Assembly (NCBI GenBank): GCA_004282745.1
Contig: SHMT01000003.1
Location: 1 to 64,000 of the forward strand
Origin: Candidatus Scalindua sp. SCAELEC01
GTDB lineage: Bacteria; Planctomycetota; Brocadiia; Brocadiales; Scalinduaceae
DNA: 64,000 nt
Direction of reading: 5' to 3'
Part shown: piece by piece, positions 3,682-58,628 of the stretch
Layout of the letters: each line of letters begins with the position of its first letter
How positions within the stretch are numbered: position 1 is the stretch's first letter
Program-made: the position numbers and the translations under genes
The notes under the pieces: model-generated
Seen by the model: only the letters and a program-made list of their open reading frames with translations
What the model was told of the DNA's origin: nothing
The model's database searches: none

Positions 3682-3828
3682 ATTGTTTGAACGAAAACTA
3701 CCCATCTACTGCGTTGCTGCAATAATTTCGCAATCCTCAAGTACAATTGTACGTTCCGGTTACGAAATTATTACACGCCTTGTACCTAGGCACTTTTCAT
3801 TCAAACACAGGGTTTTCGTTCAGACACT
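3682..3828 (+). mobile_element. 147-bp MITE, copy 1 (subtype A)
   Basis: Ends are A(G/T)TGTTTGAACGAAAAC and GTTTTCGTTCAGACACT, flanked by the direct repeat ATAT (3678-3681 and 3829-3832). The core is the palindrome GTACAATTGTAC inside arms AATTTCG and CGAAATT. No coding capacity. Confidence 0.88.
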
Positions 3829-3873
3829 ATATAAGAAGTGAATACAAATAATTTCAATAAGGAGGGGAATGTT

Positions 3874-4278
3874 ATGGATACCTGTTTCCAGACCGAAGAG
3901 GTGATAAATATCGATATCGGAACAGAGAGCAATGAAGTTCTCGTACGGAATATACCTGACGACAAACTGTTTGCAATCGAGTTTATAGGTATAAATGGTT
4001 TTACTACAAAAGGAATAGATATTTATATTGCTCTTGATGTGGACACTTTAATTTACCCGATAACAGTTTCCGGAAGTGTCCCGTTTAATGATCCTACTTA
4101 TTCATGGAGGATATTTGGCAGTCAACAAGTAAGGATATATGTACAACCGGGTCAAAAAATTAACATACATGCTTATCGCAAAGATATCAATTTTGCGGCG
4201 AGAACCTTGGTTGCTCTATCTGGAGTTCTTTTCGACGTGGAAGAACCAGTGAGTCCTAGCACCGTAGCTATTGAGTAA
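3874..4278 (+). CDS. Hypothetical small beta-rich protein
   Basis: This is a 134-residue protein whose start is fixed by AAGGAGG at 3860-3866 before ATG 3874. A longer in-frame start at 3838 would begin inside the MITE flank and has no ribosome binding site. I do not recognise the family. The sequence is rich in beta-forming stretches (EVLVRNIP, LFAIEFIGI, IDIYIALDVD, VRIYVQPGQKINI) and has no signal peptide or membrane span. The pattern is like a small beta-sandwich or structural/coat protein. It lies between a MITE and a decayed toxin gene in the accessory region. Confidence 0.6.
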   Translation: MDTCFQTEEVINIDIGTESNEVLVRNIPDDKLFAIEFIGINGFTTKGIDIYIALDVDTLIYPITVSGSVPFNDPTYSWRIFGSQQVRIYVQPGQKINIHAYRKDINFAARTLVALSGVLFDVEEPVSPSTVAIE

Positions 4279-4321
4279 AAATTCACAGGTTGCTAAGCTC
4301 CTTATTAAATCCCGGGATACC

Positions 4322-4845
4322 ATGAAAATCATGGTGCCCACTATGAAGAAAAAATACTATATTATTGCCGGGCCAAATGGTGCAGGAAAGACCACCTTTG
4401 CGGAAATCTACTTACCAATAGAAGGACGTTGCCGAAACTTTGTCAATGCAGATTTTATTGCTGCGGGTCTATCACCGTTGAATCCCGATCTCGTGCCCTT
4501 TGAAGCTGGACGTATCTTGCTTGCGCGAATTGAACACCTTGCCAATCGTGGAGACTCATTTGCTTACGAGACAACACTCAGTGGGCTTTGATATCGTCGG
4601 TGGATAAAATCTTGACAGAAATTCGGCTACCATGTCACAATCTACTTTCTGAAACTTCCGAGTGTGGACCTCGCCATCGAGCGCGTGCGCTGAGTTAGCG
4701 AGGGTGGACACAATGTACCCGAATCGGACATTCGTCGTCGCTACGTTCGTAGATGGCACAATTTCGATCATTTTTACAAACCATTGGTAAACAGCTGGAT
4801 TGTATTCGATAATTCAACTGACACGCCAAGGGTTATGGAGAAATC
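4322..4845 (+). pseudogene. Zeta-toxin-like P-loop kinase, decayed by three in-frame TGAs
   Basis: The frame encodes a zeta-toxin/UDP-GlcNAc-kinase-like AAA protein. It has Walker A 'AGPNGAGKTT', 'NADFIAAGLSP', 'FAYETTLSG', then 'GYHVTIYFLKLPSVDLAIERV', 'GGHNVPESDIRRRYV', 'NFDHFYKPLVNSW' and 'FDNS'. All parts of the family are in one frame with no frameshift. That frame is interrupted by TGA at 4589, 4622 and near 4692. The last aligns with a position that is Arg in relatives, so CGA-to-TGA change is a simple cause. The true stop TGA overlaps the start of the next gene (ATGATG), as in the intact two-gene modules. Start could be 4322 or 4343. Confidence 0.75.
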
Positions 4846-5052
4846 ATGATGGATAATAACGAAAAAGAGCCGGAGCAGGCGTTGGCAGCAATGTCGCGAG
4901 CGACATGCAAGGCGTGGAAGCAAGCGGCCGAACAACATTTAAAGGTGCCGATTTGGAAGGACGGACGGATCATTCGTGTCGATCCCCGAGTGTATGCACA
5001 ACAATTGGATCCACTCAACCCTCTATCCGCTGCGCTCCTAGAGGGCGAGTGA
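4846..5052 (+). CDS. Small partner of zeta-like toxin (antitoxin-type)
   Basis: This 68-residue protein overlaps the stop of the zeta-like kinase, indicating translational coupling. The end 'KVPIWKDGRIIRVDPRVY' resembles the short conserved tail (a '..P(I/V)xxWRDGKVVxIxPEE' pattern) of the small proteins that follow zeta-like kinases in many genomes. That supports an antitoxin-like role. Its reading frame is intact although the toxin frame is broken, as expected when a toxin is lost first. The N-terminal half is helical and charged. Confidence is moderate because the partner role is inferred from context. Confidence 0.55.
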   Translation: MMDNNEKEPEQALAAMSRATCKAWKQAAEQHLKVPIWKDGRIIRVDPRVYAQQLDPLNPLSAALLEGE

Positions 5053-5088
5053 TCCAGTCGTTAAACAGTCCGAAAAGTCACAAAATAA

Positions 5089-5454
5089 ATGAACAATACT
5101 ATGAAATTTATTGAAATAATATCAATAGCAGGATACTCCATTGAGGCTATAGGAGTCCTTGTTGTGGTCGTTGGAACGATTCTGTCTTCTGTCACATTTA
5201 TCCGTTCGTTTCGTCAATTACCGAAAGGTGTTGCTTACCATGCATACCGAAGACAATTGGGACGGTCTATTATTCTTGGTTTAGAATTTTTAATTGCCGG
5301 AGATATTATACGAACAGTAATTGTCGCGGATACATTAGAAAACGTAGCTGTCCTTGGAATAATTGTATTAATACGTACTTTTCTAAGCTTGACGCTTCAT
5401 CTTGAGATTGAAGGAAGTTGGCCTTGGCAACATGATGATAAAGATGCAAGATAA
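5089..5454 (+). CDS. DUF1622 family membrane protein
   Basis: This 121-residue protein has three predicted membrane spans, about residues 14-36, 58-78 and 85-105. The conserved block 'RRQLGRSIILGLEFLIAGDIIRT' followed by 'VLIRTFLSLTLHLEIEGSWPW' is diagnostic of DUF1622. The function of this inner-membrane family is unknown. The gene stands alone on its strand, with an ATG after AAAATAA and no strong ribosome binding site. Just downstream, 'GCCTAACAAGCGC' at 5465 looks like one half of an attC site, but I could not find the other half. Confidence 0.85.
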   Translation: MNNTMKFIEIISIAGYSIEAIGVLVVVVGTILSSVTFIRSFRQLPKGVAYHAYRRQLGRSIILGLEFLIAGDIIRTVIVADTLENVAVLGIIVLIRTFLSLTLHLEIEGSWPWQHDDKDAR

Positions 5455-5529
5455 TAGAGGCTCGCCTAACAAGCGCAAGCACAACAATGGTTGAGGACGT
5501 TGAACGAAACCTAAACGAGGTACTAAAAT

Positions 5530-6753
5530 ATGGAGATAACTGACGGAGTATTGCGAATTGGACCCGGCTTAGCTGCAACGTTCGGCATCATCGTACTGTT
5601 CGTGGGCAAGCGGGTGAATGAAAAGGTCACTTTCCTGCGGGAGTTCAGCATCCCGAAGCCGGTTACCGGCGGGCTATTTTTCTCGATACTGTGCGCCACC
5701 GTGTACGCAACGACAGGCGTGGCGGTCGAGTTCGATCTCGCGGCCCGGGACTTCCTCCTGGTGTATTTCTTTACGACCATCGGCATTAACTCCAGCGTCA
5801 AAGACCTGCTGACCGGGGGGAAACCGCTCGTCGTCCTTTTGGTAATTACCATTTTGTACATGGTCGTCCAGAACCTGACCGGCCTGTCCATAGCGGCGCT
5901 CTTCGACTTGCCCGCCGCGGTTGGCCTTCTGGGCGGTACGGTGTCGCTGATCGGAGGCCACGGCACCGCAATCGCCTGGGCCCCGCGGATCGCGGAAGAC
6001 TACGGCGTATCCAATGCCATGGAAGTCGGTATCGCCTGTGCGACCTTCGGCTTGATTCTGGCGAGCCTCATGGGTGGCCCGATCGCCAAGTTCCTGATCG
6101 CCCGTCACGATCTCACACCCGACAAGGCTGATACATTGGACGTTGGGGTATCTGAGGAAAAAGGCGATAGTACTATCGGTTCCATGGACTTTCTAGACGC
6201 CATCCTCGCCATCCATCTGAGCGTGTTTTTCGGGCTGTTGCTTAACGATGGATTGAAAATGCTGGGACTCGAGCTGCCCTTGTTCGTAACGTGCCTGTTT
6301 GCCGGACTCCTCCTTACCAACCTCATCCCTGCCAATTTCCCGCGTATCAGCGGAATGCGCTGGCCCAGTCGCACGCAGTCCATGGCCCTGATCGCCGACG
6401 TCGCACTGGGGACCTTCCTGGCCATGTCACTTATGAGCATGCAGCTATGGGCATTGATCGATCTGGCCGGGCCCATCTTCACCCTTCTCGCGGCTCAATT
6501 CGCAATCGCGGTGGCCATCAACATATTTGTCGTCTTCCCCCTCATGGGCCGCACGTACGACACCGCTGTGGTGTGCGCCGGTTTTGGCGGTATCTCCCTG
6601 GGCTCGACACCCACGGCTATGGCCAATATGTCTGCGGTGACGCAGCGGTACGGCGCCTCCCACCTTGCCTTCGTCATCGTGCCTTTAGTGTGCGCGTTTT
6701 TCATCGACTTGGTCAACGCATTGCTGATCCCCTTCTTCCTCGCCAAATTCTAG
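5530..6753 (+). CDS. gltS: Sodium/glutamate symporter GltS
   Basis: This 407-residue inner-membrane protein imports glutamate with Na+. It has about ten hydrophobic spans in two inverted halves. Family signatures are 'GGTVSLIGGHGTAIAWAP' in the first half and 'FGGISLGSTPTAMANMSAVT' in the second; both are re-entrant loop sequences of GltS. The length is normal for the family. The base composition is visibly richer in G+C than the flanking genes, with GC-biased third positions, which suggests recent acquisition from a GC-rich donor. It has a reasonable ribosome binding site (CGAGGTA) before ATG 5530. No neighbouring gene relates to glutamate. Confidence 0.93.
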   Translation: MEITDGVLRIGPGLAATFGIIVLFVGKRVNEKVTFLREFSIPKPVTGGLFFSILCATVYATTGVAVEFDLAARDFLLVYFFTTIGINSSVKDLLTGGKPLVVLLVITILYMVVQNLTGLSIAALFDLPAAVGLLGGTVSLIGGHGTAIAWAPRIAEDYGVSNAMEVGIACATFGLILASLMGGPIAKFLIARHDLTPDKADTLDVGVSEEKGDSTIGSMDFLDAILAIHLSVFFGLLLNDGLKMLGLELPLFVTCLFAGLLLTNLIPANFPRISGMRWPSRTQSMALIADVALGTFLAMSLMSMQLWALIDLAGPIFTLLAAQFAIAVAINIFVVFPLMGRTYDTAVVCAGFGGISLGSTPTAMANMSAVTQRYGASHLAFVIVPLVCAFFIDLVNALLIPFFLAKF

Positions 6754-6835
6754 CCGACGGGCTATCCTCAGGGCGATCGGAGGCCGGCAGAAATCCATAG
6801 GTCTCTGATAGAAATCATTCCTTGTTTCTTTAGCT

Positions 6836-7093
6836 AGTGTTTGAACGAAAACTACCCATCTACGGCGTTGCTGCAACAATTACGTAATCCTCACGTACTT
6901 GAGTACGCTCCGGTTACGTAATTATTTCGCGCCTTGTATACTAAAACCGATTTGGTTTTCGGTTTTACCGGCAACCAAATCTTGGTTGCAGTTACACTCG
7001 CTCAATTTTATCTCGGATTTTATCCGAAAACCATTATGAGATGAGTGTACCTGGGCAGTTCTGGTTCAAACACTGGGTTTTCGTTCACGCACT
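6836..7093 (+). mobile_element. 147-bp MITE, copy 2 (subtype B), interrupted by a second element
   Basis: The ends match the MITE family. The total is 258 bp, which equals 147 + 108 + 3: a foreign 108-bp element (6939-7046) plus a 3-bp duplication sit inside the right arm. The outer flanks are AGCT (6832-6835) and AACT (7094-7097), the only copy whose 4-bp flanks differ, by one base. The core is GTACTTGAGTAC with arms AATTACG/CGTAATT. Confidence 0.88.
6939..7046 (-). repeat. Repeat family B, copy 1, nested in the MITE
   Basis: The element runs between two copies of GTA (6936-6938, 7047-7049). It carries several small hairpins, e.g. AAAACCGATTTGGTTTT and GCAACCAAATCTTGGTTGC. A second full copy in opposite orientation is at 60584-60697, and a short related piece is at 24648-24673. 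The strand is assigned relative to the 60584 copy, taken as +. Confidence 0.8.
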
Positions 7094-7097
7094 AACT

Positions 7098-7381
7098 ACC
7101 GGTTGGTCAGGCCAAGCTTTGAACGGAAACCCCGTGGTTCAACCACTATCTACCTCCTCAATCACCAGGATTCGTTAGGTTGTGCTAACCCTCCTGGAGC
7201 TTTAGCCTTATATGTCCTTTCTGTCCGTCAACTCGCAAATTTGCGTTCCGTCTCCCTTCAGGCGATACCTCACGGCTTCGCCCTTGCCTTCGGCTCATGG
7301 TTGGCGTATAATGCCGCTATATCGTGATTCTCCCATAAGGGACTTTCACCCTATTAGTTCACATACATGCTGGGCGTACAC
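7098..7381 (-). mobile_element. Truncated group II intron (5' part, domain I)
   Basis: Read on the minus strand from 7381, it begins GTGTACGCCCAGC and continues with GTGAACT and AGGGTGAAAGTCCCT. It then has typical domain I loops (GCCGAAGGCAAGGGC, GGAGACGGAACGC, GTGGTTGAACCAC). These are the conserved opening of bacterial group II introns. No reverse transcriptase or domain V/VI follows: the sequence is cut at about 7098 next to the MITE end. The 5' splice point abuts the attC-like fold at 7382-7497 on the same (bottom) strand, the position used by attC-targeting group IIC introns. The class is not determined. Confidence 0.6.
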
Positions 7382-7497
7382 AATAGCATGAAACCAACCA
7401 CCAGATCATTTACGATTTAACATTTATCGAGGCTGCCGCTTCAAGCCTCTCTTGCAAGCATGACGCACAGGTGGTGGTTGCTTATGCAGAACGTCAG
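7382..7497 (+). other. attC-like folded site, copy 2, split by intron
   Basis: CAACCACC (7395-7402) pairs with GGTGGTTG (7473-7480), and GCAT (7386) pairs with ATGC (7484-7487). The sequence parallels the site at 3499-3623 through most of its length (shared CATGAA, CCAACCACC, CTGCTTCA/CCGCTTCA, CCTCTCT). The outer left box is replaced by the intron boundary and the outer right box reads GAACGTC, so the site is degenerate. Confidence 0.42.
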
Positions 7498-7535
7498 CCA
7501 CTCAAGCAAATGGCAAAGGCAAGGGATACATAATT

Positions 7536-8945
7536 ATGAATGAAATCATCTGTCCGCACTGTAAGAAAGCATTCAAGATTGATGAAGCTGGATATGCTGA
7601 CATTTTGAAACAGGTTCGTGATAGCGAATTTGAACAGCAATTGCATGAGAGGCTTGAGTTGGCCGAAAACGATAAGAGAAATGCTGTTAAGCTAGCCAAG
7701 GAGCAGGTCAGCAACGAATTGCAGAAGGAAACGGCAGCCAAGGACGTTGAAATTCAAGAATTGAAGGCAAAATTAGACGCCGGTGAGGTTGCGCAGAAAC
7801 TTGCCGTGGCCGAGGCCATGAAAGTTGTGGAAAAGGAACGCGATGCACTTACCAACGAACTAAAGCAGGCGAGGCAAGATAACGAAACCGCTTCGAAGTT
7901 AGCTGAGGCAATTCACTCAAACCAACTCCAAGAGACCTCTGCTAAAAAGGATGCAGAGATTCAAGAACTTAAGGCAAATCTCAGCGCAAACGAAATCGCA
8001 CAGAAGCATGCAATCACTGAGGCGGTCAATGCAGCCAAGAAGGAGCGCGATCAACTGAAAAGTGACCTTGAACGAGCGAGGCTCGAGAAACAGCTTGCCG
8101 AGACGTCGCTCAAGGATAAGTACGAGACGCAGATCAAGGATCGAGATGACATGATTGAGCGCCTCCGCGATATGAAAGCTCGTCTGTCGACCAAGATGGT
8201 TGGTGAAACCCTTGAGCAGCACTGCGAAACCGAGTTCAACCGCATTCGAGCAACTGCTTTCACGAGAGCATACTTTGAAAAAGACAACGATACACGAACT
8301 GGTAGCAAGGGAGATTACATCTTCCGCGACTCGGATGAGTCTGGCACTGAGATCGTCTCGATCATGTTTGAGATGAAGAACGAAAATAACGAAACAGCGA
8401 CAAAGAAGCGGAACGTCGACTTTCTTAAAGAACTCGACAAAGATCGTAATGAAAAGAACTGTGAATATGCGGTCCTCGTAACTCTTCTTGAGCCTGATAG
8501 TGAGCTCTATAACTCCGGCATTGTCGATGTGTCCCACCGTTACCAGAAGATGTATGTCGTCCGACCGCAATTCTTTATCCCGATCATTACGTTGCTGCGA
8601 AACGCTGCTCAGAACTCACTGAAATACAAAACTGAGCTCGCCATAGTAAAAGCACAGAATATTGATATTACGAATTTCGAGAATGAGCTTGATGCATTTA
8701 AGACAGGCTTCGCCCGGAACTACGAACTAGCATCCAAGAAATTCAAAACGGCTATTGACGAGATCGACAAAACTATCGACCATCTTCAGAAGACCAAGGA
8801 TGCGCTGCTCGGATCTGAAAACAATTTCCGTCTTGCTAATAACAAAGCCGACGACTTAACCGTCAAAAAACTAACCAAAAAGAACCCCACAATGGCCGCA
8901 AAGTTCGCCGAACTCAGGAACGATGAAACATCCGATTCGGTATGA
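7536..8945 (+). CDS. DUF2130 coiled-coil protein with zinc ribbon
   Basis: This 469-residue protein starts with a CPHCKK motif and the typical '[25 protein letters not shown]' opening of DUF2130 proteins. Residues ~40-215 form a long coiled coil that contains a tandem duplication. 'EIQELKAKL...EVAQK..VAEAM' recurs as 'EIQELKANL...[12 protein letters not shown]' about 60 residues later. The globular C-terminal domain (about 220-400) has '[11 protein letters not shown]' and '[11 protein letters not shown]'. The E-x-K there is consistent with the PD-(D/E)xK nuclease-like fold proposed for this family. The biological role is unknown; a DNA-related function is inference. It directly follows the attC-like site, so it may be a cassette gene. 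The GC level is intermediate. Confidence 0.88.
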
Positions 8946-9030
8946 GGAGTGCCATACCCATTCCAAGAGATCACTTGCTACGCTCGCTGAATTCACAGTT
9001 AGAATCTAAGAAATAAAAAAACTTGAAATA

Positions 9031-9053
9031 TACGATAATATATCGTACGATAT
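9031..9053. promoter_or_regulatory. Palindromic operator of the vapBC-like pair
   Basis: Two overlapping palindromes, TACGATAATATATCGTA (9031-9047) and ATATCGTACGATAT (9040-9053), end six bases before the antitoxin start. Antitoxins of this type bind such repeats to autoregulate, so this is the likely operator. Confidence 0.5.
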
Positions 9054-9058
9054 TTTCC

Positions 9059-9273
9059 GTGAAAGTGACTGCATTAATTCCTGACAATTTAATAATGGAA
9101 GTTAAAGAATATACGAAAGGTAAAAATATTACCGAATCTTTGATCAAAGCTCTTTCCGAGTGGATTAAGGATCCAGGAAAGAATTAAAGAATTAAATGCT
9201 ACAAATTTAAGCGCTCCCCTCAAATTTCGTAAGGACTTTTCCCCCCAAAAAACAAGAGTAGTTAATCGTCCAT
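9059..9273 (+). pseudogene. VapB-like antitoxin, frameshifted
   Basis: GTG at 9059 opens 'KVTALIPDNLIMEVKEYT' and 'GKNITESLIKALSEWIKD', characteristic of the VapB-type antitoxins (DUF2191) partnered with short PIN toxins. The frame stops at 9185 after 42 residues. The expected remainder continues in another frame as 'KELNATNLSAPLKF', ending just before the toxin start at 9275. A small indel in the repetitive AAGAATTAAAGAATTAAA stretch is the simplest cause. The DNA-binding half would remain intact. Confidence 0.65.
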
Positions 9274-9274
9274 A

Positions 9275-9686
9275 ATGATCATAATTGACACATCAATATG
9301 GGTAGAGTTTTTTAAAAATAGGCAACCGTTTTTCAATAAAACCACTACACTACTAGAAGAAAATCAAATATATGCATTAGAATGTATTTTTGCTGAATTA
9401 ATGCAGGGCGCATTAAATATTCGGGAAAGATATTATATATGCATATTGGTTGAACCTCCCTAAACCTGAAGTTGAAAATCTGCTTATAAAGGCGAGTATA
9501 GAATCAGGCAAAAACAGATGGGATTCAAAAGGAATTGGTTTAATTGACAGTGTTATTATTTTTTCTGCACGAGAAGCGTTATCTAAGGTTTGGACATTAG
9601 ATAATAAATTAAAAACCATCTTAAAGAAAGAAGAGATAAGAATTATGAACCAATACATAGTGTCTGAACGAAAACCCTGTGTTTGA
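9275..9686 (+). pseudogene. VapC-like PIN toxin, frameshifted
   Basis: ATG 9275 opens 'MIIIDTSIWVEFFK' (first catalytic Asp) and 'ALECIFAELMQGA' (Glu), then stops at 9461. The rest continues in the +2 frame from about 9430 as YAYWLNLPK, 'KGIGLIDSVIIFSAR' (Asp) and 'WTLDNKL' (Asp). Restoring one base near 9430 would rebuild a complete PIN domain, so all acidic residues survive but in two frames. The gene's last codons and stop lie inside the MITE inserted at 9659. With the antitoxin also broken, the whole module is dead. Confidence 0.72.
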
Positions 9687-9805
9687 GTGAAAAGTGCCCA
9701 GGTACAAGGCGCGTAACAATTTCGTAACCGGAACGTACAATTGTACTTGAGGATTTCGAAATTGTTGCAGTAACGTAGTAGATGGGTAGTTATCGTTCAA
9801 ACACT
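9659..9805 (-). mobile_element. 147-bp MITE, copy 3 (subtype A)
   Basis: Inverted relative to copy 1, with perfect flanking duplications ACAT (9655-9658 and 9806-9809) and core GTACAATTGTAC. It inserted into the 3' end of the vapC-like gene and supplies its final eight or so codons and stop. Confidence 0.9.
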
Positions 9806-9842
9806 ACATATGTGTGGAGAACTTTTAGTATAGGATACAAGC

Positions 9843-10604
9843 ATGAAACCAAAAATAACAATAGCCACAGCCCGAACCCCGGACGGTGGAGAGATGGTGC
9901 TTTATCAGCACGATCGCGATTTTTCGATCGAAATCAACGGTCAGGATTTGATGAACAGTCGTCAGCATGAGTCGGAACTGGAGTTGGCGCGACTGGGTTG
10001 TGCACATCTGGCTGGCAGCAGAGCACCAAGCGTACTCATTGGCGGACTGGGTCTAGGTTACACCTTACGCCAGGTTCTCGATATGCTCAGTCCCCGCGCC
10101 CACGTGGTGGTGACGGAACTGTTGACTGCAGTAGTCGAATGGAACCGTGAGTTCCTCGGAGAACTTAACGGTCAATTTCTCATGGATAAACGGGTCGACC
10201 TCAAGATGGGCAATATCGTGGACTTTATCTCACGTTCCAAGAACAAATTCGATTCGATTCTGCTGGATATCGATAATGGCCCAAGCGCAATGACCCATCC
10301 AGGGAACCGCCGTCTCTACGGTTACGAAGGAATCATTGCCTGTCAACAAGCCCTGCGCAAACAGGGATGTCTGGCCGTGTGGTCGGCTGAGCCGAGTAAA
10401 AGATTCGAGCAGCTCTTGATGGACTGTAACTTTCATGTGCGGCTTTTCCGGGTCCCCGCCTATAAGGGGAGTAAATCACAATCACGTTTTGTATGGGTCG
10501 CTTCGGAAAACAAGGGTATCCTGCCCCCCGGTGGTGGCGAGCCGTACCTGCCATTCAGAGACGAGTCAAGAGACGGTCGCAGACGACCCCGGGAGATACT
10601 CTAG
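9843..10604 (+). CDS. Spermidine synthase-like methyltransferase-fold protein
   Basis: This 253-residue protein has a Rossmann-fold nucleotide-binding motif 'VLIGGLGLGYTLRQVL' (about residues 64-79). It also has the acidic strand 'VVVTELLTAVVEW' and the 'DSILLDIDNGP' active-site region seen in polyamine aminopropyltransferase-like proteins. It lacks a recognisable polyamine-binding N-terminal beta-hairpin domain of full SpeE, so it belongs to the spermidine-synthase-like group rather than confirmed SpeE. The substrate is unknown. The GC content is higher than the neighbours. ATG 9843 lies 38 bp past the MITE end; no close partner gene is seen. Confidence 0.75.
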   Translation: MKPKITIATARTPDGGEMVLYQHDRDFSIEINGQDLMNSRQHESELELARLGCAHLAGSRAPSVLIGGLGLGYTLRQVLDMLSPRAHVVVTELLTAVVEWNREFLGELNGQFLMDKRVDLKMGNIVDFISRSKNKFDSILLDIDNGPSAMTHPGNRRLYGYEGIIACQQALRKQGCLAVWSAEPSKRFEQLLMDCNFHVRLFRVPAYKGSKSQSRFVWVASENKGILPPGGGEPYLPFRDESRDGRRRPREIL

Positions 10605-10640
10605 TCACGGGAAGGTTGTCGTCTCAACCCCTTAATCGTT

Positions 10641-11123: not shown

Positions 11124-11202
11124 TTCTCAAATATGAAAGAGTAAAATTGAGTGAAGGATTCGTGAAGGCCGTCGCGCATCTTTATGTTAGGAAAGAGACA
11201 AA

Positions 11203-11712: not shown

Positions 11713-11783
11713 GACCCCCGTCTTCACCTGACAAGGTAATCAGTGTAAATCATAGGCTCAAGGAAATTTTTTACCTCTTAAAT

Positions 11784-11930
11784 AGTGTTTGAACGAAAAC
11801 TACCCATCTACTACGTTACTGCAACAATTTCGAAATCCTCAAGTACAATTGTACGTTCCGGTTACGAAATTGTTACGCGCCTTGTACCTGGGCACTTTTC
11901 ATTCAAACACAGGGTTTTCGTTCAGACACT
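11784..11930 (+). mobile_element. 147-bp MITE, copy 4 (subtype A)
   Basis: Ends AGTGTTTGAACGAAAAC and GTTTTCGTTCAGACACT, with perfect AAAT duplications (11780-11783, 11931-11934). Core GTACAATTGTAC. Confidence 0.9.
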
Positions 11931-11944
11931 AAATAGGAATCGAG

Positions 11945-24630: not shown

Positions 24631-24647
24631 TGTTTAAGCAGATACAC

Positions 24648-24673
24648 GAAAACCTATTTGGTTTTCGGTTTTA
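24648..24673. repeat. Repeat family B fragment
   Basis: GAAAACCTATTTGGTTTTCGG (read from 24648) resembles the hairpin end of repeat B (6939-7046 and 60584-60697). The rest is diverged. It might be a remnant or an independent hairpin after the PBP4 stop. Confidence 0.35.
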
Positions 24674-45313: not shown

Positions 45314-45460
45314 AGTGTTTGGACGAAAACTACCCATCTACAGCGTTGCTGTAAGAATTCCGTAATCCTCACGTACTTAAGTACGTTCCGGTTACAGAAT
45401 TATTACGCGCCTTGTACCTGGGCAGTTTTGGTTCAAACACAGGATTTTCGTTCAGATACT
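45314..45460 (+). mobile_element. 147-bp MITE, copy 5 (subtype B)
   Basis: Perfect AGAT duplications (45310-45313, 45461-45464). Core palindrome GTACTTAAGTAC. Ends AGTGTTTGGACGAAAAC and GTTCAGATACT. It separates the genes at 45080 and 45470. Confidence 0.9.
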
Positions 45461-45907: not shown

Positions 45908-46054
45908 AGTGTTTGAACAAAAACTACCCATCTACTGCGTTGCTGCAATAATTTCGCAATCCTCAAGTACAATTGTACGTTCCGGTTACGAAATTATTGC
46001 GCGCCTTGTACCTAGGCACTTTTCATTCAAACACAGGGTTTTCGTTCAGGCACT
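45908..46054 (+). mobile_element. 147-bp MITE, copy 6 (subtype A)
   Basis: Perfect ATCT duplications (45904-45907, 46055-46058). Core GTACAATTGTAC. It lies 448 bp from copy 5 in the same orientation, between the hypothetical gene and the flagellin terminator. Confidence 0.9.
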
Positions 46055-49708: not shown

Positions 49709-49897
49709 TAGGGTGCAGGAAAAAACAACTTGTTGTTTTATCGCGCTCAGTTTTAGGACAGATTTGGTCGATCTGACCGACCAGGACCGCAGGCGTAGCC
49801 TAAGCTACAGCGAGGATGCTGCGAGTGAAGAGCGGCCGAAGGTGACCTGAAAATGAGATGCGAGAACAACAAGTTATTTTTTCCTGGGCCCATAGGG
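49709..49897. repeat. Repeat family C, copy 2
   Basis: Left arm ATAGGGTGCAGGAAAAAACA and right arm TTTTTTCCTGGGCCCATAGG are inverted copies over about 30 bp, with CAACTTG / CAAGTT inside. The middle is more G+C-rich. The shared CTGAAAATGAG segment links it to 34216-34440. A short CCCAGGAAAGA piece at 49941-49957 overlaps the end of the next gene and supplies its last residues. Confidence 0.6.
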
Positions 49898-49939
49898 TTC
49901 TCCACAACCAGAGTCCCAATCCTCAAATATGGAGATCAG

Positions 49940-52900
49940 CTAAGGACCCAGGAAAGACCACTCCTTATTACTGGCTCCCCTATCAAGACATTGAATACGT
50001 TTTAAATCACTCTCTATCTTAAAGGCCATTTCTGCAGATGGGACGTCATCTCTTTCGTAAAGCTTCTTACCTATGGTCTCAAAAATCCCTCCCAAATCGT
50101 CTACTCCAGTCAGGGTAATGTCACGAGGCAGGTTCAATACTTTTAATAATTGATCACATTCGGCAACAACCTCTTCGTACTTATCTAAGGAGATATTAAT
50201 TTTACAGATGAGGAGTCTAATACCAAAGAGAGATGGATCAATAGTAACCGCCTTCCTCCAAAAGGAAATTGCTTCTTCAAATTCCCCTTTTTTTGCTTTG
50301 ACTTGGCCTATCTTGAACAGCGTATCTACTGACGTCTCATTTATCTCCAAGAGCTCCAAATAGATCTCTTCCGCCTTATCGACATTGTTGTTTTCTCGAT
50401 AATAATCTCCCAATAACGTTAGACAACTCTTGATGTCAGGAGTAGCATCAATTGCCATCTCAATCTCAACATCACCTTCGGTCTTTCGATTGTTAGACAA
50501 GAAGGTGAACCCTCTTAATAGGTGTATCTTCCACTTATGCCCTATCGTATGAAAGGTAACAGCATCATACCCTTTTGGCTCATCTGTTACTTCACCTAAT
50601 AATACTAAATACCTTTCTGAGACCTCCAAAAAGTTGTCATACATTTTCCAATCATGGTAAACGAATGCGAGTATACAGAAACCATCTAAGTATCGATTAT
50701 CGATCCCAATGAGACTCTGGGCATAAGACTCTGCCTCATGGAGTTTCCCACATTCATAACTTGCCGCACTCATCACATAATAGGAGATCAAAAAGTCTTT
50801 TTTATCGAGTTTCTCTGTTTCTGCAAATTCTAATGCAATCTTACTCTCTTTTATCGCTTTTCCATAGGTACCTTTTTCTAGATATAAGATCCCAAGATAC
50901 CGGTGAGGAACGGGATTGCATGGGTCCGTTCTTATCTGCTGTTTTAACAACGAAGAGGTCCGTAAAAACTTTTTTTCCATCTCTTTATCTGACAAATTGT
51001 ATCCATAGTGGATTATGCTGATTGATGATGCGAGACATCTCCCTCTGAATGTCAACTCATTGTGAACAATTCCATCATACCGTGTACCCTGAAAATTTTT
51101 AAAGAGACGAATGGAATTTGTGTACGATTCATTATGAGAGTTCTTTGACCTGTTTTTCACAACAAAAGAGATGGCTGAATGGTCATTACCCTCTATTAAA
51201 TCCTGAAGTCTTGAAACTTCGGATTTATCTAATTCCTCATCTGCATCCATTATGAGTATCCATTGGGAAGTTGCGTATTGCAATGAGTAGTTCCTTGCCT
51301 TGCTGAAACTGTTTTCCCATGCATGGTAATAAATGTTTGCACTATATCTTTTTGCAATTTCCACAGTCTTGTCCGTAGATCCGGTATCAACAATAACCAT
51401 CTCATCAACCAGTGAACAAACGCTATCAAGACATCTTGCAAGATTGCGTTCCTCGTCCCTTACGATCATGCAGAGAGAAATGGTAGATTTTTGGTCCGAA
51501 GTTTCTCCTACCCGGAGAGTCGGTGAAGATTCCTGAGTAGTTTCAATTGGCCTAATCGTATTTACCTCTTTCAACGACACCCTATTTTTATCGATGATGA
51601 AACTACTCTGAGGATTTTTACTCCTGCTTTTTTTTGCGCTGAAATCTTGAGCCTTCTCTCTTAATGCCCGTCCCACGCGATCAAAGACTCCGTTCCATCC
51701 ACCTGGATGTGTCTGCCGAAAAAGACACATAGTGGGATACCATGGACTATCCTCACGGCCTACTAACCAACGCCAGTCAGGCACGAACGGCAGGAGTGTC
51801 CATACCGGTTTTCCAAGGGCACCGGCAAGGTGTGCAACGGCGGTATCAACCGAAATAATGAGATCGAGATTGGCAATCACGGCTGCTGTATCTGAAAAGT
51901 CTTTCAACTCCGTATCTAAATTAATAATGTCCATACCCTCGGGAGGACCTAGCGCTTCAGCCGAAGCCAGTCCCTTTTGCAGAGAGTAGAATTTCACCCC
52001 AGAAACCCGAGACAAGGGCGCAAAATCATTTAAACTACACGATTTTTTATGATGAATATTTCGATTCTCCGGATTCCCAGACCAAACAAGACCAATTCTG
52101 AAGGAATCGTTGCCTGCAAGACGCCCACGCCATTCATCAATACGTCCGATATCTGGTACAATATAGGGGACAGAGGATGGTATCGTCTCCAGTTTGGTAT
52201 TAAATATCCCAGGCAGACTCATCAGGGGAATAGAGAAATCAACCTCTTCAACCGGCTCTCCAGACGCTGACCTGTCAACAATTTTATTGATCCCGTCACC
52301 GTTTTCTAGAAGGTGAAGGAGCTGGGGCCAACACTCAAAGATTACGCGCCCACCTTGTGACTGGATCAGGGGAAGATAACGAATAAATTGTATCGTATCA
52401 CCAAAGCCTTGTTCAGTGTGTACGAGGACACTCTTGCCATTTAAAGGAGAACCGTCCCATTTTGGCTGTTTAAAAGATTCTAAGCCGTAATCCTTTGTGT
52501 ACAATCTCTCTTCATATTCAGGCCAAGCTTCAGAAAAACACCCTTTCAACAGTAACAACATCGACCGGTTAAAGCGTGCTTCTGCATAATCTGATTTTGA
52601 TGCTATTGCCTTATCAAAGGCTACGAGTGCTTCATGTAACTTACCCTTTTCTTGAAGAACAATGCCACAGTTATTATGGGCCTCCGCATGATTTGGACTG
52701 AGACTGACTGCCGTAAGATGCTCTTCGAGAGATTCATCGTACCTGCCCAGATCCTTGAGCGTTGCTCCTAAATTGTTATGTGCATCCACATAGTTTGGGT
52801 CTAATTCAATCGCTTTCCGATAATTCCTTATTGCTTCATACAGTTCGTTCACTTGCTTGAAAGCGTTGCCGAGATTATAGTATGCCTCGGCATAGTTAGG

Positions 52901-53308
52901 CTTGAGCGAAATTGCGTGTCTATATTTTACCATTGCCGCAACAGGTCTATCCGTCTCTAGTAATACTGCCCCAAGATTGTTGTAGGTCTCTGCTTTACCA
53001 GGCTCAAGCCGGAGTGCCTTTTCATAACTTTCAATCGCCTCCATAAAATTTCCCTGTTTCTGAAAAATGATTCCCAGAATATTATATGCATCAGCATAGT
53101 CAGGATTGAGCAAGATAGTTTCCTTCATCAGTGTCAATGCTCTGTCAAAATTTCCCTTTTGCAGATTTACCGTACCTAAGAGAAATGTTGCCGCAACATA
53201 ACTCGGTTCAATTTCCAGTACCCTGTTGTATGATTCCTCTGCAGCAGCAAGGTTACCCGTCTGATGATATTTGAGGGCTGTATTGAATAATTTCTCGAAA
53301 TTTTCCAT
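49940..53308 (-). CDS. TPR / GT9-like / GT2 / TPR fusion glycosyltransferase
   Basis: This 1122-residue protein has four parts. TPR units (about 1-275, e.g. 'AEAYYNLGNAFKQVNELYEA') lead into a GT9-like (heptosyltransferase-like) domain (about 280-560). That domain shows 'VLVHTEQGFGDTIQFIRYL', 'FRIGLVWSGNPENRN' and 'ISVDTAVAHLAGALGKPVW'. A GT2 domain follows (about 610-770) with 'ISLCMIVRDEERNLARCL', 'DEMVIVDTGSTDKTVEI' and 'MDADEELD', then a TPR tail to 1110. It therefore joins the two protein types found separately beside it (53315 and 47735), with two potential active sites. The last residues WSFLGP and the stop fall in a repeat-C-like sequence. The substrate is unknown; protein glycosylation is likely. 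Confidence 0.87.
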   Translation of the reverse strand: MENFEKLFNTALKYHQTGNLAAAEESYNRVLEIEPSYVAATFLLGTVNLQKGNFDRALTLMKETILLNPDYADAYNILGIIFQKQGNFMEAIESYEKALRLEPGKAETYNNLGAVLLETDRPVAAMVKYRHAISLKPNYAEAYYNLGNAFKQVNELYEAIRNYRKAIELDPNYVDAHNNLGATLKDLGRYDESLEEHLTAVSLSPNHAEAHNNCGIVLQEKGKLHEALVAFDKAIASKSDYAEARFNRSMLLLLKGCFSEAWPEYEERLYTKDYGLESFKQPKWDGSPLNGKSVLVHTEQGFGDTIQFIRYLPLIQSQGGRVIFECWPQLLHLLENGDGINKIVDRSASGEPVEEVDFSIPLMSLPGIFNTKLETIPSSVPYIVPDIGRIDEWRGRLAGNDSFRIGLVWSGNPENRNIHHKKSCSLNDFAPLSRVSGVKFYSLQKGLASAEALGPPEGMDIINLDTELKDFSDTAAVIANLDLIISVDTAVAHLAGALGKPVWTLLPFVPDWRWLVGREDSPWYPTMCLFRQTHPGGWNGVFDRVGRALREKAQDFSAKKSRSKNPQSSFIIDKNRVSLKEVNTIRPIETTQESSPTLRVGETSDQKSTISLCMIVRDEERNLARCLDSVCSLVDEMVIVDTGSTDKTVEIAKRYSANIYYHAWENSFSKARNYSLQYATSQWILIMDADEELDKSEVSRLQDLIEGNDHSAISFVVKNRSKNSHNESYTNSIRLFKNFQGTRYDGIVHNELTFRGRCLASSISIIHYGYNLSDKEMEKKFLRTSSLLKQQIRTDPCNPVPHRYLGILYLEKGTYGKAIKESKIALEFAETEKLDKKDFLISYYVMSAASYECGKLHEAESYAQSLIGIDNRYLDGFCILAFVYHDWKMYDNFLEVSERYLVLLGEVTDEPKGYDAVTFHTIGHKWKIHLLRGFTFLSNNRKTEGDVEIEMAIDATPDIKSCLTLLGDYYRENNNVDKAEEIYLELLEINETSVDTLFKIGQVKAKKGEFEEAISFWRKAVTIDPSLFGIRLLICKINISLDKYEEVVAECDQLLKVLNLPRDITLTGVDDLGGIFETIGKKLYERDDVPSAEMAFKIESDLKRIQCLDRGASNKEWSFLGP

Positions 53309-53314
53309 AGCTCA

Positions 53315-55495
53315 TTAAATGTCTTCTACCTCTTTTCTAAGAGCGTGTTTCACGCGCGCTATCACCCCTTCCCACCCATCCGAATCTGTTTGTCGGAACA
53401 GACGCATGGTCGGGTACCACTGACTCTCCTCACGTTTCAACATCCAACGCCAATCGGGTGAAAATGGCAGAAGTGTCCATACCGGTTTGCCAAGAGCACC
53501 AGCTAGATGTGCCACTGCAGTATCTACAGAAATTACAAGATCCAGATTGTCAATAACCGCTGCGGTATCCGCAAAATCATGCAGCCCTGCTCCCAGATTA
53601 TAGATTGTCATCCCTTCCGGTGGATGAAATGCCTCTGTGGCTGCTGGACCTTTTTGAAGTGCGTAGAAGTTTAAACCGGAAATTTCCGTTAAGGGAGAAA
53701 AATCATTCAATGTGCAGGAACGATTAAAATAGACATAATTGCGTGATGGTCCACCTGCCCAGACCAGACCTACGTTGAATGAATTTCCATTTCCACATAT
53801 CTTACGCCATTTGGCTGAAAGCGTGGGATCAGCTTGAATATACGATCCTCTTGAAGGTATAGTATCCAATGTCGTTCCAAATATACCGGGTAAGCTGAGG
53901 AGCGGCACATGAGAATCAAAAATTTCAGATGGTTCACCTGAGGGATTCTGCTCAATAATCTTGTTAATACCGTCATAATTTCTGAGGAGACGAACAAGGG
54001 GTCGTTGACATTCAAAAATTACATATCCACCTCGTGACTTTACCATGGGAAGATATCGTACAAATTGAATGGTATCACCAAAACCCTGTTCTGCATGCAC
54101 AAGTATCGGCCTCTCATTGAGCAACGAACCATTCCATCGTGGCATCAGGAAGTTTCGAGAGTGGTATCTTTTCGTGCGTAACCTCCATTCGTATTCCACC
54201 CACCCGTCTTTATAGTTTCCCGACAAGAGTAAGGCAATAGACCTATTCAGGTGTGCCATGGCAAAGTCTGGTTTGAGCACTATTGCACGACCACTGCTTT
54301 CAATAGCCTCCGAAAGTTTCCCCTGCTCCTGGAGTGCAGCACCGAGATTACTATATACCTCAGCATAATCTGGTTTCAGTGTCAGTGCCTTCCGGTAACT
54401 CTTGATTGCCTCTTGCAATCTGCCCTGCTCTTGTAGTGCGGTACCTAAATTACCGTAAATAATTGCAATATCAGGTTCGATTGCCACAGCCTTTTCGTAG
54501 TTGGCAACAGCCTCTTCATACCTGCCTTGCTCCTTAAAAGCATTTGCCAGATTGTTATACGCTGTTGCATAGTCTGATCTCAACGTCAATGCTTTAAGGT
54601 AATTCCCAATTGCCTCTTCTTGTTGTCCCTGTTCTTGTAGTGTTGTACCAAGATTACAAAATGCTTCGGCATAATCTGGTTTCAATGCTATTGCTCGCTT
54701 GTGGCAAACCACTGACTCACTAAGTTCTCCCTGTTCACGAAGTGCACTACCAAGATTGTCGTGTGCCTCAGCATAGTCAGGTTTCTGTGCAATAGCCTTT
54801 CTATAATTGCTGATTGCCTTGTCAAGTTTGCATTGCACTTTGAACACACCTGCAAGATTATTGTATGTTTTTGCAGAATCCGGTTTTATCCTGAGAATTT
54901 TTTTATATATCGCTATTGCCTCATCTAATTTCCCCACTTCCTGAAATAAAGCCCCAAGGTTACCACAGATTTCAACATTATCAGGATCTAAGGCTATTGC
55001 CAGCCGATAGCTTTTCACTGCTTCGTCAAACTTGTTTTGTTCTCTCAACACATTTCCAAGGTTGGTATGTATTTCAGCATCATCTTGATTGATGAGTAAT
55101 GCCTTCCTATAATTCTCGATCGCCTCATCACATCTGCCCATTTGTTTCAACGTATTGGCAAGGTTATAATACCCTTCGGTATAGTCAGGATTAAGTTTTA
55201 TTGCTTTTTGATAGCTTACGGTTGCCTCATCGAGTCTGCCTAATCCTTGAAGTGAAGAACCAAGGTTGCCGTAAGCCATACTATAATCCGGTTTAAGGGT
55301 AACGGTTTTCCTTAATAAGCCGGTCGCTGCTTCAAAATTTCCTAACTGAAGATTTAGTGTGCCAAGGAGAAAGAGCACGTCAGTGTGCATGGGTTGGATT
55401 TCGAGTATCGTGTTGTAAGAGTTTGCAGCCGTAACTAAATCCCCGGACTGATGGTGCTCAAGGGCACTTTGGAATAAATTTGCAATGTTGTCCAT
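53315..55495 (-). CDS. TPR protein with GT9-like glycosyltransferase domain
   Basis: This 726-residue protein has about a dozen TPR units of 34 residues in the first ~430 residues ('AEAFCNLGTTLQEQGQQEEA' type). A C-terminal GT9-like domain follows with 'ILVHAEQGFGDTIQFVRYL', 'FNVGLVWAGGPSRN', 'SVDTAVAHLAGALGKPVW' and 'SQWYPTMRLFRQ'. This layout is like O-GlcNAc-transferase-type (SPINDLY-like) proteins, although the catalytic half resembles heptosyltransferases. It overlaps the 3' end of the gene at 55458 by 38 bp and precedes 49940 by 6 bp, so the three are one operon. An acceptor protein is likely bound by the TPR superhelix. Confidence 0.87.
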   Translation of the reverse strand: MDNIANLFQSALEHHQSGDLVTAANSYNTILEIQPMHTDVLFLLGTLNLQLGNFEAATGLLRKTVTLKPDYSMAYGNLGSSLQGLGRLDEATVSYQKAIKLNPDYTEGYYNLANTLKQMGRCDEAIENYRKALLINQDDAEIHTNLGNVLREQNKFDEAVKSYRLAIALDPDNVEICGNLGALFQEVGKLDEAIAIYKKILRIKPDSAKTYNNLAGVFKVQCKLDKAISNYRKAIAQKPDYAEAHDNLGSALREQGELSESVVCHKRAIALKPDYAEAFCNLGTTLQEQGQQEEAIGNYLKALTLRSDYATAYNNLANAFKEQGRYEEAVANYEKAVAIEPDIAIIYGNLGTALQEQGRLQEAIKSYRKALTLKPDYAEVYSNLGAALQEQGKLSEAIESSGRAIVLKPDFAMAHLNRSIALLLSGNYKDGWVEYEWRLRTKRYHSRNFLMPRWNGSLLNERPILVHAEQGFGDTIQFVRYLPMVKSRGGYVIFECQRPLVRLLRNYDGINKIIEQNPSGEPSEIFDSHVPLLSLPGIFGTTLDTIPSRGSYIQADPTLSAKWRKICGNGNSFNVGLVWAGGPSRNYVYFNRSCTLNDFSPLTEISGLNFYALQKGPAATEAFHPPEGMTIYNLGAGLHDFADTAAVIDNLDLVISVDTAVAHLAGALGKPVWTLLPFSPDWRWMLKREESQWYPTMRLFRQTDSDGWEGVIARVKHALRKEVEDI

Positions 55496-57368
55496 CTGTA
55501 TCTCCCTTAAGTTTCTCTTGTAGCAAGGCTTCTTTTACCTGAACAAACACGCTAGACCAGTCATCTAATTCTGTTTGACGAAACAACCTCATCTCTGGAT
55601 ACCACGGGCTATCATACCGATTTAAAAACCAGCGCCAATCCGGTATACGATGCAGAAGTACCCAGACCTTTTTACCAATGGCTCCTGCAAGATGAACAAC
55701 TGCAGTATCAGTGGAAATGATAAGATCCAGGTTTGTCATTATCGCAGCGGTATCTGCAAAATCCTTTAACCTATCTTCTAGGTTGATGATATGCATCCCT
55801 TTGGACTGATGGAGAGTATCCTCCGAGTCCTTGCCCTTTTGAAGACTGTAAAACGTAATTCCCGGGATATCTGCTAAAGGTAAAAAATCAACGAGGGAAC
55901 AAGATCTACTACGATTTTTAAATTTTGGGTTTCCGGACCAAACAATACCGATTTTAAAGTTTCTATCGTTATCAAGAAGCTTATTCCACCTCTCCACGAG
56001 TTTTGAATCGACCGTAATGTAGGGAACTTTGGAGGGTATGGTATCAAGAGTAGTTCCAAATATTCCAGGAAGGCTCAGGAGCGGGATATGAACATCAAAA
56101 GGCAGGGTCATGGTATTGCGAGACGTGCGTTCTACCATATCATCTATACCCGCACACTCTCTCAACAACCTATAGAGATCCCGCCTACACTCGAATATCA
56201 CATGGCCCCCCAGAGATTGAATCCTGGGTAGGTAACGGATAAACTGAATAGTGTCACCAAATCCCTGTTCTGCATGCACAAAGATGCGCCTGCCATTTAA
56301 CCGTTTACCATCCCATTGAGGTTGTTGAAAGTTCCTCAATCTATGATCCTTTGTGAGCAATCGCCATTCATACTCTGCCCAACCTTCCTTAAATTGTTCG
56401 GTTAAGAGAAGTACGGTAGACCTGTTTTTATGTGCCGAGGCCTCATCTGGCATCAGCTCTATCGCGTGATCATAACTCTCTATCGCCTCTTCAAGTTTGC
56501 CACGTTCTTGAAGCGCCGAACCAAGATTGTTATACGCCATTGCATAATCCGGCTTCAGCTCTATCGCATGATCATAACTCTCAATTGCCTCATCAAGTTT
56601 GCCAAGTCCTTGAAGAGCTGAACCAAGATTGTTATACGCCATTGCATAGTCCGGCTTCAGCTCTATCGCATGATCATAACTCTCAACCGCCTCATCAAGT
56701 TTGCCAAGTTCTTGAAGTACTGAACCAAGATTGTTATACGCCATTGCATAGTCCGGCTTCAGCTCTATTGCATGATCATAACTCTCAACCGCCTCATCAA
56801 GTTTACCAAGTTCCTGATAGAGAGAACCAAGGTTATTATACGCCATTGCATAATCGGGCTTCAGTTGGATTGCCAACTTTTGACAAGCAATTGCCTTGTC
56901 GATTTTCCTTTGCTCTCTAAATACGTTGCCGAGACTATAATGGGCCAAGGCGCATCCCGGTTTGAGTACTATCGCCTTTTGGAAATTATCTGCTGCTTCC
57001 TCAAGCTTGCCTTCTGCCTGGAGAGCTGTCCCAAGATTGTAAAAGGCATCGTCGTAGTCAGGTTTCAGTGCAATTGCCTGCTGAAACCTCTCTATGGCCT
57101 CTTTAACTTTCCCCTGCCCTTGCAGTGCCGTACCGATATTGTTGTGTGCAGCACTATGTTCGGGTTGCTTCGCTATTACCTGGAGAAGAAACATTGTTGC
57201 AGCATTGAGGCACCCCAGTTGGAGATTAAGAGTTCCGAGAAAAAAGATGGCATCAATGTGTCCCGGTTGTCTTTTCAGGACCTCTTTATAGAAACTTGCT
57301 GCACAAACAAGCTCACCCGACTGATGGAGTTTCAGTGCTTTTTTAAAGAGAACTTTACTGGTTGTCAT
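55458..57368 (-). CDS. TPR protein with GT9-like glycosyltransferase domain (paralogue)
   Basis: This 636-residue protein has TPR units in residues 1-330, including four nearly identical ones ('YDHAIELKPDYAMAYNNLGS'). The GT9-like domain has 'RIFVHAEQGFGDTIQFIRYL', 'FKIGIVWSGNPKFKN', 'ISTDTAVVHLAGAIGKKVW' and 'SPWYPEMRLFRQTE'. 'HRIPDWRW' is retained near the end. It is the first TPR-GT gene of the operon and is preceded 30 bp upstream by the glycosyltransferase gene at 57399. The near-identical DNA repeats suggest continuing expansion of the TPR number. No transmembrane or signal sequence, so it acts in the cytoplasm. Confidence 0.88.
   Translation of the reverse strand: MTTSKVLFKKALKLHQSGELVCAASFYKEVLKRQPGHIDAIFFLGTLNLQLGCLNAATMFLLQVIAKQPEHSAAHNNIGTALQGQGKVKEAIERFQQAIALKPDYDDAFYNLGTALQAEGKLEEAADNFQKAIVLKPGCALAHYSLGNVFREQRKIDKAIACQKLAIQLKPDYAMAYNNLGSLYQELGKLDEAVESYDHAIELKPDYAMAYNNLGSVLQELGKLDEAVESYDHAIELKPDYAMAYNNLGSALQGLGKLDEAIESYDHAIELKPDYAMAYNNLGSALQERGKLEEAIESYDHAIELMPDEASAHKNRSTVLLLTEQFKEGWAEYEWRLLTKDHRLRNFQQPQWDGKRLNGRRIFVHAEQGFGDTIQFIRYLPRIQSLGGHVIFECRRDLYRLLRECAGIDDMVERTSRNTMTLPFDVHIPLLSLPGIFGTTLDTIPSKVPYITVDSKLVERWNKLLDNDRNFKIGIVWSGNPKFKNRSRSCSLVDFLPLADIPGITFYSLQKGKDSEDTLHQSKGMHIINLEDRLKDFADTAAIMTNLDLIISTDTAVVHLAGAIGKKVWVLLHRIPDWRWFLNRYDSPWYPEMRLFRQTELDDWSSVFVQVKEALLQEKLKGDTDGQHCKFIPKCP
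56440..56850 (-). repeat. Four 102-bp tandem repeats inside the TPR gene
   Basis: The unit repeats with 102-bp (34-codon) period and only a few base changes between copies (compare positions 56460, 56562, 56664 and 56766). The neighbouring TPR units are diverged, so these four are a recent expansion. Confidence 0.9.
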
Positions 57369-57398
57369 AATAAATGGATTCTATTTTCTTCTAACTAT

Positions 57399-58343
57399 TT
57401 AGTGAAATTCTTTACCCCAGAAATCAAGAAGTTCTCTTTCCTGTCTTTCAAACGAGTATTGAGCTGCCTTTGCCTCTGCCTTCAACTTAATCTTTTCTAT
57501 ACTTTCCTCTCTCTTATTGATAAGACCAATTGCGTATCCCAAGGTTCTTGCACATTCAACAAGATTCCCTTCCTCACACCAAAACCCATTATCTTCTGAT
57601 GCATATTCCAAGCCGCCATCTCCATGAAACCCTACGACGACACAACCACATGCCATCGCCTCTATGGGAGGCAACCCCAACCCTTCGTAGATGCTTGTCG
57701 AAAGAAATATGTCAGATTCACTCAGGATTTCAGCAACCTTTGTTTCATCCACATTATCTATGCAGACCCAGGGCACCTGTTTATATTGTTTAAAAAGAAC
57801 ACAAAAGAGGTTCTTAATAAAATCCAGTTCACCAGGTGTCTTTCTTGGCATATATGCTATCTGTAATTTTTTTTCCCGTGGTTTGAAAATTTCCAAGGAC
57901 ACCGTATTATGAATAACCGGAACTTCGTCTATATCTAAAACTGACCGAATAAACCTGCTGATGATGTCTGAACAGCAAAAGATTTTCGATATACCGTAAT
58001 CTGCCCACGATTTCCCATTTCGTATGCCCTTAAAAATATAATAATGGTTCTGACAGAAGACGAATTTTCTGGCCTGAACATTTTTGAATGCTCGAATTGC
58101 CGCCTTATTATCCTCCGGTATAACAACAATATCTTTTGGAGAAACCCGCAAACCGTCTTTCACGTAAAGTACCGGAGCATTGGATTTCAACCAGGGAGGA
58201 GCGAAACCCTCATTAATATGGACGACAAATGAAGGAAAACCATTCTTCACCAAATGGGAAACGTGTGAATAGATCACTTTCACACCCCCTGAAGGCTCAG
58301 TACAATCGTGACAAATATATAGGATTCTGCCGTTAGTATTCAT
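57399..58343 (-). CDS. Glycosyltransferase, group 1 (GT4-like)
   Basis: This 314-residue protein is read from ATG 58343 (MNTNGR). The N-terminal half has 'GRILYICHDCTEPSGGVKVI' and 'GFPSFVVHINEGFAP'. The C-terminal half has 'QIAYMPRKTPGELDFIK' and the typical donor-binding tail 'LSESDIFLSTSIYEGLGLPPIEAMACGCVVVGF'-type region (E-G-x-G-x-x-x-x-E-A). It is shorter than most GT4 enzymes. It opens the glycosylation operon running to 49940. The sugar donor is unknown. Confidence 0.85.
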   Translation of the reverse strand: MNTNGRILYICHDCTEPSGGVKVIYSHVSHLVKNGFPSFVVHINEGFAPPWLKSNAPVLYVKDGLRVSPKDIVVIPEDNKAAIRAFKNVQARKFVFCQNHYYIFKGIRNGKSWADYGISKIFCCSDIISRFIRSVLDIDEVPVIHNTVSLEIFKPREKKLQIAYMPRKTPGELDFIKNLFCVLFKQYKQVPWVCIDNVDETKVAEILSESDIFLSTSIYEGLGLPPIEAMACGCVVVGFHGDGGLEYASEDNGFWCEEGNLVECARTLGYAIGLINKREESIEKIKLKAEAKAAQYSFERQERELLDFWGKEFH

Positions 58344-58481
58344 CAAAAACAATTTACTCCATTACAGATAAATAGAACAGTTTCCAATGCTACATTTATA
58401 AACACCCTCCACCTAAAGTAACTAGTAAGCGGAAACACAGATTCATGTTCAACTTTATTTTATACCAGAAACACCTTAACT

Positions 58482-58628
58482 AGTGCGTGAACGAAAACCC
58501 AGTGTTTGAACTAAAACTGCCCAGGTACAAGGCGCGAAATAATTACGTAACCGGAGCGTACTCAAGTACGTGAGGATTACGTCATTGTTGCAGCAACGCC
58601 GTAGATGGGTAGTTTTCGTTCAAACACT
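58482..58628 (-). mobile_element. 147-bp MITE, copy 7 (subtype B)
   Basis: Perfect AACT duplications (58478-58481, 58629-58632). Core GTACTCAAGTAC (subtype B read in reverse), with the variant end AGTGCGTGAACG. It lies between the GT4 gene start and the bactofilin gene end. Confidence 0.9.

Follow-up and report, generated by a model that had tools for sequence, protein, structure and literature searches.

A largely young family of 147-bp miniature elements in Candidatus Scalindua and its probable partners among ISNCY_1-type transposons

The 64,000-nucleotide stretch of Candidatus Scalindua sp. SCAELEC01 analysed here (the window) belongs to a draft genome of 4.59 Mb in 104 contigs (G000) and carries seven copies of a 147-bp miniature inverted-repeat transposable element (MITE), members of a large and largely young family. 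Comparison of its ends and target sites with those of complete transposons suggests that the family was very probably mobilised in trans by an ISNCY_1-type DDE transposase (NCBIfam model NF033593), whichever of the two end types described below that enzyme served. An abundant orphan MITE is now linked to the ISNCY_1 group, and repeats of one family, making up about 1% of the genome, are documented in the anammox order Brocadiales. A poorly classified transposase group gains rules for its ends and targets, since all 22 perfect duplications found at AGT...ACT ends have the form ANNT, with two loci (L197 and L198) departing from the pattern. The case also illustrates how draft assembly can make a partner seem absent, since multi-copy elements may drop out of drafts and leave their ends at contig edges.

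A first-pass annotation of the window had described seven copies, all of 147 bp except one with an insertion, six of them between perfect 4-bp duplications of the form ANNT and the seventh between AGCT and AACT. All seven were recovered at the starts listed in Table 1, six being exactly 147 bp long, and the flanks are as described. It had overlooked that the copies at 9659 and 58482 are inverted relative to the others, and that ANNT is preceded by T and followed by A in 7/7 copies, which gives TANNTA as the target. The copy at 3682 begins with ATTG, one base off.

Table 1. Copies of the 147-bp family in the window, with the mini-element nested in one of them
Feature	Position	Strand	Remarks
MITE copy, 147 bp	3682..3828	+	single end left, doubled end right; duplication ATAT/ATAT
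MITE composite copy, 258 bp	6836..7093	+	flanks AGCT/AACT (3/4 match)
Mini-element nested within composite copy	6937..7049	+	bounded by TA...TA; also occurs alone, in own genome and sister species
MITE copy, 147 bp	9659..9805	-	reverse orientation; duplication ACAT/ACAT
MITE copy, 147 bp	11784..11930	+	served as search query; duplication AAAT/AAAT
MITE copy, 147 bp	45314..45460	+	more diverged, 86% to the 11784 query copy; duplication AGAT/AGAT
MITE copy, 147 bp	45908..46054	+	duplication ATCT/ATCT
MITE copy, 147 bp	58482..58628	-	reverse orientation; duplication AACT/AACT

The element is short (147 bp, or 257-258 bp as a composite), lacks a transposase gene and has terminal inverted repeats, the 17-bp end AGTGTYTGAACGAAAAC being present at both of its ends. 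Each 147-bp copy is asymmetric: the repeat is single at one end (AGTGTTTGAACGAAAAC) and doubled at the other, where a second 17-bp repeat, missed in the earlier annotation, begins 19 bp inward of the outer one. The whole is an imperfect palindrome with 69-72% identity to its own reverse complement, mainly over positions 2-127, and its single strand gives a stronger fold than shuffled sequences do (z -3.97). Single-end forms of 128 bp (n=7) have a perfect duplication in 0/7 cases and are treated as decayed copies rather than as a second active form. A longer stretch at L030 (472-790) starts with a divergent form of the doubled MITE end; it may represent a larger relative, likewise non-autonomous, that carries different cargo. 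A search of the whole window against Rfam gave no match on the MITE copies, its only matches being a c-di-GMP-I riboswitch (RF01051, 25661-25755) and a piece of a group II intron.

Evidence for insertion comes from 66 distinct 147-bp copies sampled in 90 overlapping pieces (408 kb). Perfect 4-bp duplications flank 60 of them, all 60 of the form ANNT, and the addition of three composites brings the count to 62/69, again with ANNT throughout (62/62); flank pairs are imperfect in the other 7/69. The perfect duplications are preceded by T in 62/62 cases and followed by A in 60/62, and the target is therefore the palindrome TANNTA, a pattern matched by 0.4% of window positions. Left out of these counts were 24/93 candidate end pairs outside the 147-bp and composite classes, of which L034 3070 (126 bp) and L051 1374 (145 bp) do show perfect ANNT duplications. 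When the joined flanks of the 62 perfect copies were compared with the same 408 kb, and one self-hit (L011) and the palindromic side-hits of L008 were set aside, three sites were informative, each with an uninterrupted relative carrying a single ANNT, the feature that the first-pass annotation had named as confirmation of insertion. The relatives are six copies of another repeat for L008 (one at window 49722-49895), L037 for L045, and for L049 a stretch of the sister species G001 (83% over 123 bp). Such related sites were used because intergenic DNA of the sister species does not align, genes aligning at ~75-83%, and a search by synteny for orthologous empty sites in that species gave none usable; the three are to be read as related sites in repeats and not as proven orthologous sites in sister strains. 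The repeat of ~175 bp that acted as the empty-site control occurs at several genome places (window 49722-49895; L008, L041, L042, L043, L046, L057) and is itself palindromic, with 67-70% identity to its own reverse complement.

Judged from the sequence, with its duplications, TANNTA target and empty sites, the MITE is a real insertion. Its copies avoid open frames: 18/67 sites lie across a frame of at least 100 codons, compared with 190/253 TANNTA sites and 879/1000 random places in the window. This avoidance, the imperfect palindrome and the strong fold would also suit a palindromic regulatory repeat, a hairpin of the REP/BIME kind spread by recombination and no transposable element at all, yet the 62/69 perfect duplications, the fixed TANNTA and the single-ANNT empty sites need an insertion enzyme and make that reading highly improbable.

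The transposable family is large. With up to 3 mismatches allowed, the 17-bp end has 463+449 matches in G000, against 21+18 for the reversed control, and the core motif has 175+142 matches, against 0, so that at least 317 copies are present; counts so far above the controls exclude a chance origin of the repeats. A DNA search with the query copy gave 407 first-look candidates, and all 40 of those scored were at 98-100%. Within the 66-copy sample, which leans to young copies because 30 loci were chosen as best matches to the query, the nearest neighbour of a copy has a median identity of 99.3% and lies at 98% or more for 48/66, and much of the family therefore looks young. In 147 genomes searched (own and relatives), matches appeared solely in G000, in G001, where five copies scored among 21 candidates reach 82-87%, and as one 27-bp end match in G024. 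The MITE body was thus found only in this genus among those genomes, with a burst in this species. The earlier description is supported: the family is non-autonomous, was recently mobile and produces ANNT duplications of 4 bp.

The insertion reported in one copy, here the one at 6836, is present and consists of a second mini-element bounded by TA; the copy that holds it is one of at least three composites (window 6836, L031 and L054). These share the same internal site and differ in their outer flanks, so the composite probably arose once and afterwards moved as one unit. The copy at 58482 is 99% identical to the composite copy over 103 bp and so belongs to the subfamily from which the composite arose. 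Such exchangeable filling fits an element that needs just its ends. The second mini-element (~110 bp, TA...TA) also lies at window 60581-60699 and, in part, at 24643-24673. It occurs without the 147-bp MITE in G000, has 33 near full-length places at 88-97% in G001, where it is found in many places, and carries TA at both sides in 23/23 distinct full copies that have both flanks within the sampled pieces. Directly adjoining the composite copy is the group II intron piece (RF02001; 7122-7279, minus strand), which ends in sequence like a decayed MITE end.

The first-pass annotation had proposed looking for an insertion sequence with these ends and a 4-bp duplication, and such elements exist: they are ISNCY_1 transposons in the family of Brocadia, with ends matching at up to 17/17 positions. 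An end-pattern scan of 62 genomes of the order gave 20 matches in G046, of which 13 lie no more than 140 bp from a contig start and on the strand running off the contig, the signature left when copies of a transposon collapse in assembly; in G053, where matches fall on long contigs, they enclose an element of 1,183 bp whose transposase is shortened. Transposase relatives were found by protein search in 22 of the same 62 genomes, G000 and G001 not being among them. Full-length transposons of 1.86-1.89 kb with AGTG ends are present in G042, G026 and G051. Perfect duplications flank both G042 copies (AATT, AACT), both G026 copies examined (ATTT, AAGT) and L179, but not L122, and the G051 copy has unequal flanks (ACAT/AATT). 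The candidate transposases score above the cut-off of 325 bits against NF033593 (L122, 433; L123, 417; L125, 470). Both ends of L122, L125 and L179 match the outer doubled end of the MITE at 17/17 positions and its single end at 16/17, while those of L123 match at 14-16/17. The MITE therefore shares its ends and its ANNT/TANNTA target with autonomous ISNCY_1 elements of its own order, none of the AGTG type having been found in its own genome. Beyond the ends the likeness fades. In seven elements the similarity stops after 17-22 bp, apart from one weak 39-bp match (79%, L117), and derivation of the MITE from such a transposon by internal deletion was rejected on these grounds. The element L124 (G024) was not counted as independent, it and its right flank being identical to L144 (G026), of another genus; the identity extends over 3.2 kb across the two genera, the left flanks are unrelated, and L124 is probably a misbinned contig.

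The same rules hold further afield. A scan of named genomes kept 80/94 loci, in Ca. Brocadia species, Verrucomicrobia, Nitrospirae, many Proteobacteria and others, from which 53 near full-length loci were picked for end analysis. An AGT...ACT pair was found in 37 of these and absent from 16, and 22/37 pairs have a perfect 4-bp duplication, ANNT in 22/22, preceded by T in 22/22 and followed by A in the 21/21 that could be read; among the 15 pairs without one, some are clearly mispaired (L187, L215, L220). The end consensus of these loci is about AGTGYCTGNCCGAAAAC. In L197 and L198, two of the 16 loci without an AGT...ACT pair, the ends GTGCC...GGCAC lie between the 6-bp repeats GAGTTA and GAACTA; ANNT is still duplicated there, preceded by G (GANNTA instead of TANNTA), and the right end lacks the last T.

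As to the mover within the ISNCY_1 group, the first-pass annotation had seen no transposase with such ends in the window. This stands and extends to the whole G000 assembly as far as the AGTG type is concerned; an ISNCY_1 element with divergent ends is nevertheless present there, broken at contig edges. By protein search, neither G000 nor any of 16 further genomes of its family, which is not that of Brocadia, has a transposase closely related to the AGTG type; 5/16 have distant relatives (24-39% identity). The search of G000 with NF033593 gave just two fragments, both near an end of AGTTT type (AGTTTTTGTACGGAAAT), which matches the MITE ends at 12-13/17 positions. This end is reached at 14 of 100 examined contig edges (of 208), where it adjoins ANNT and then A in 14/14, and TANNTA plus the end has 18 exact matches in G000, of which 16 lie no farther than about 210 bp from a contig edge. 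The resident multi-copy element is thus real, its body having dropped out of the draft. Of the 100 edges, ten read N and none runs into an AGTG-type transposon. Relatives of AGTTT type in the same family also follow TANNTA, L135 and L137 with perfect duplications and L138 with unequal flanks, and score 401 (L135) and 416 bits (L138) against the model. Other sequences recur at G000 contig edges in clusters of 8, 5, 5, 5, 4, 4 and smaller, which presumably represent other collapsed multi-copy elements.

The end sequences and duplications observed, the rule for the target, the related empty sites and the full transposons that match together point to action in trans. An ISNCY_1-type transposase would bind the 147-bp element at its two ends (AGTGTYTGAACGAAAAC) and cut it out or copy it, and insertion at the palindromic TANNTA through a 4-bp staggered cut would produce the ANNT duplication. 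The mover would have been of the AGTG-ended type seen in the Brocadia family, lost from G000 or missing from its assembly. The main rival, held to be rather unlikely, is that the MITE is moved, despite the end mismatch, by the resident, recently active element, which has AGTTTTTGTACGGAAAT ends; its many near-identical copies and shared target rule speak for it, but its ends match the MITE at 12-13/17 positions, against 16-17 for L122, L125 and L179. Moreover, the MITE keeps G at position 4 of the single end in 66/66 aligned copies, and of the outer doubled end in 95%, where the resident has T. On account of the poorer end match, a past or missed AGTG-type mover is preferred. The partner that the first-pass annotation had left unnamed can thus be assigned in kind only, as ISNCY_1-type. 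A broader reading is tentative and may well prove wrong: ISNCY_1 would form a coherent family with AGTG ends and near-strict TANNTA, and the doubled-end miniature would, in this organism, be a hyper-mobile substrate of that family whose copies now number in the hundreds; it may have lost its own AGTG-type transposase first and then have hijacked the divergent resident one.

Mobilisation by another transposase family (IS4, IS5, IS630 or IS1202 type) has very little probability. Although 4-bp duplications are found in several IS families, elements of the IS630/Tc1-mariner type duplicate TA, and such an origin is set aside for a MITE with 4-bp ANNT duplications; the nested mini-element does sit between TAs. 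A search of G000 for PF01609 (IS4/IS5-type DDE) gave no match, though multi-copy bodies can drop from this assembly. For the IS1202 family, excerpts of a paper on Acinetobacter members (PMC10132070) give ends of 24-26 bp, 5-bp duplications and insertion near dif sites; the 17-bp ends and 4-bp ANNT duplications of the MITE differ in both respects, and this family too was discarded.

Among known systems, the closest are the ISNCY_1 elements of Ca. Brocadia sapporoensis (L179) and Ca. Brocadia sp. WS118 (L178), which have the same 17-bp ends as the outer doubled end of the MITE and, like it, lie at ANNT in TANNTA on both sides (ACTT/ACTT for L179; ACAT/AATT, unequal, for L178). They differ in their length of ~1.86-1.89 kb, in the presence of a transposase and in that no doubled end was seen. 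The resident AGTTT element and its relatives L135 and L138, from the family to which the window belongs, share the transposase model and the TANNTA target with the AGTG type and differ in their ends and, for the resident, in a body absent from the G000 assembly save for fragments. The IS1202 family was formerly an ISNCY group in ISfinder, filed as 'not characterized yet' according to the same excerpts (PMC10132070). A literature search on TANNTA, on ISNCY with MITEs or anammox bacteria, and on MITEs in Scalindua or anammox bacteria, with subscription papers and ISfinder outside its scope, gave no report of the present findings; texts containing both 'miniature inverted-repeat' and 'anammox' concern Thiomargarita and Dolichospermum. 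In size and copy number, the features on which alone they are likened here, the ERIC, Correia and Chunjie MITEs of other bacteria resemble the 147-bp family in being short and present in many copies, ERIC reaching up to 711 copies and Correia more than 120 according to a review (PMC10969869).
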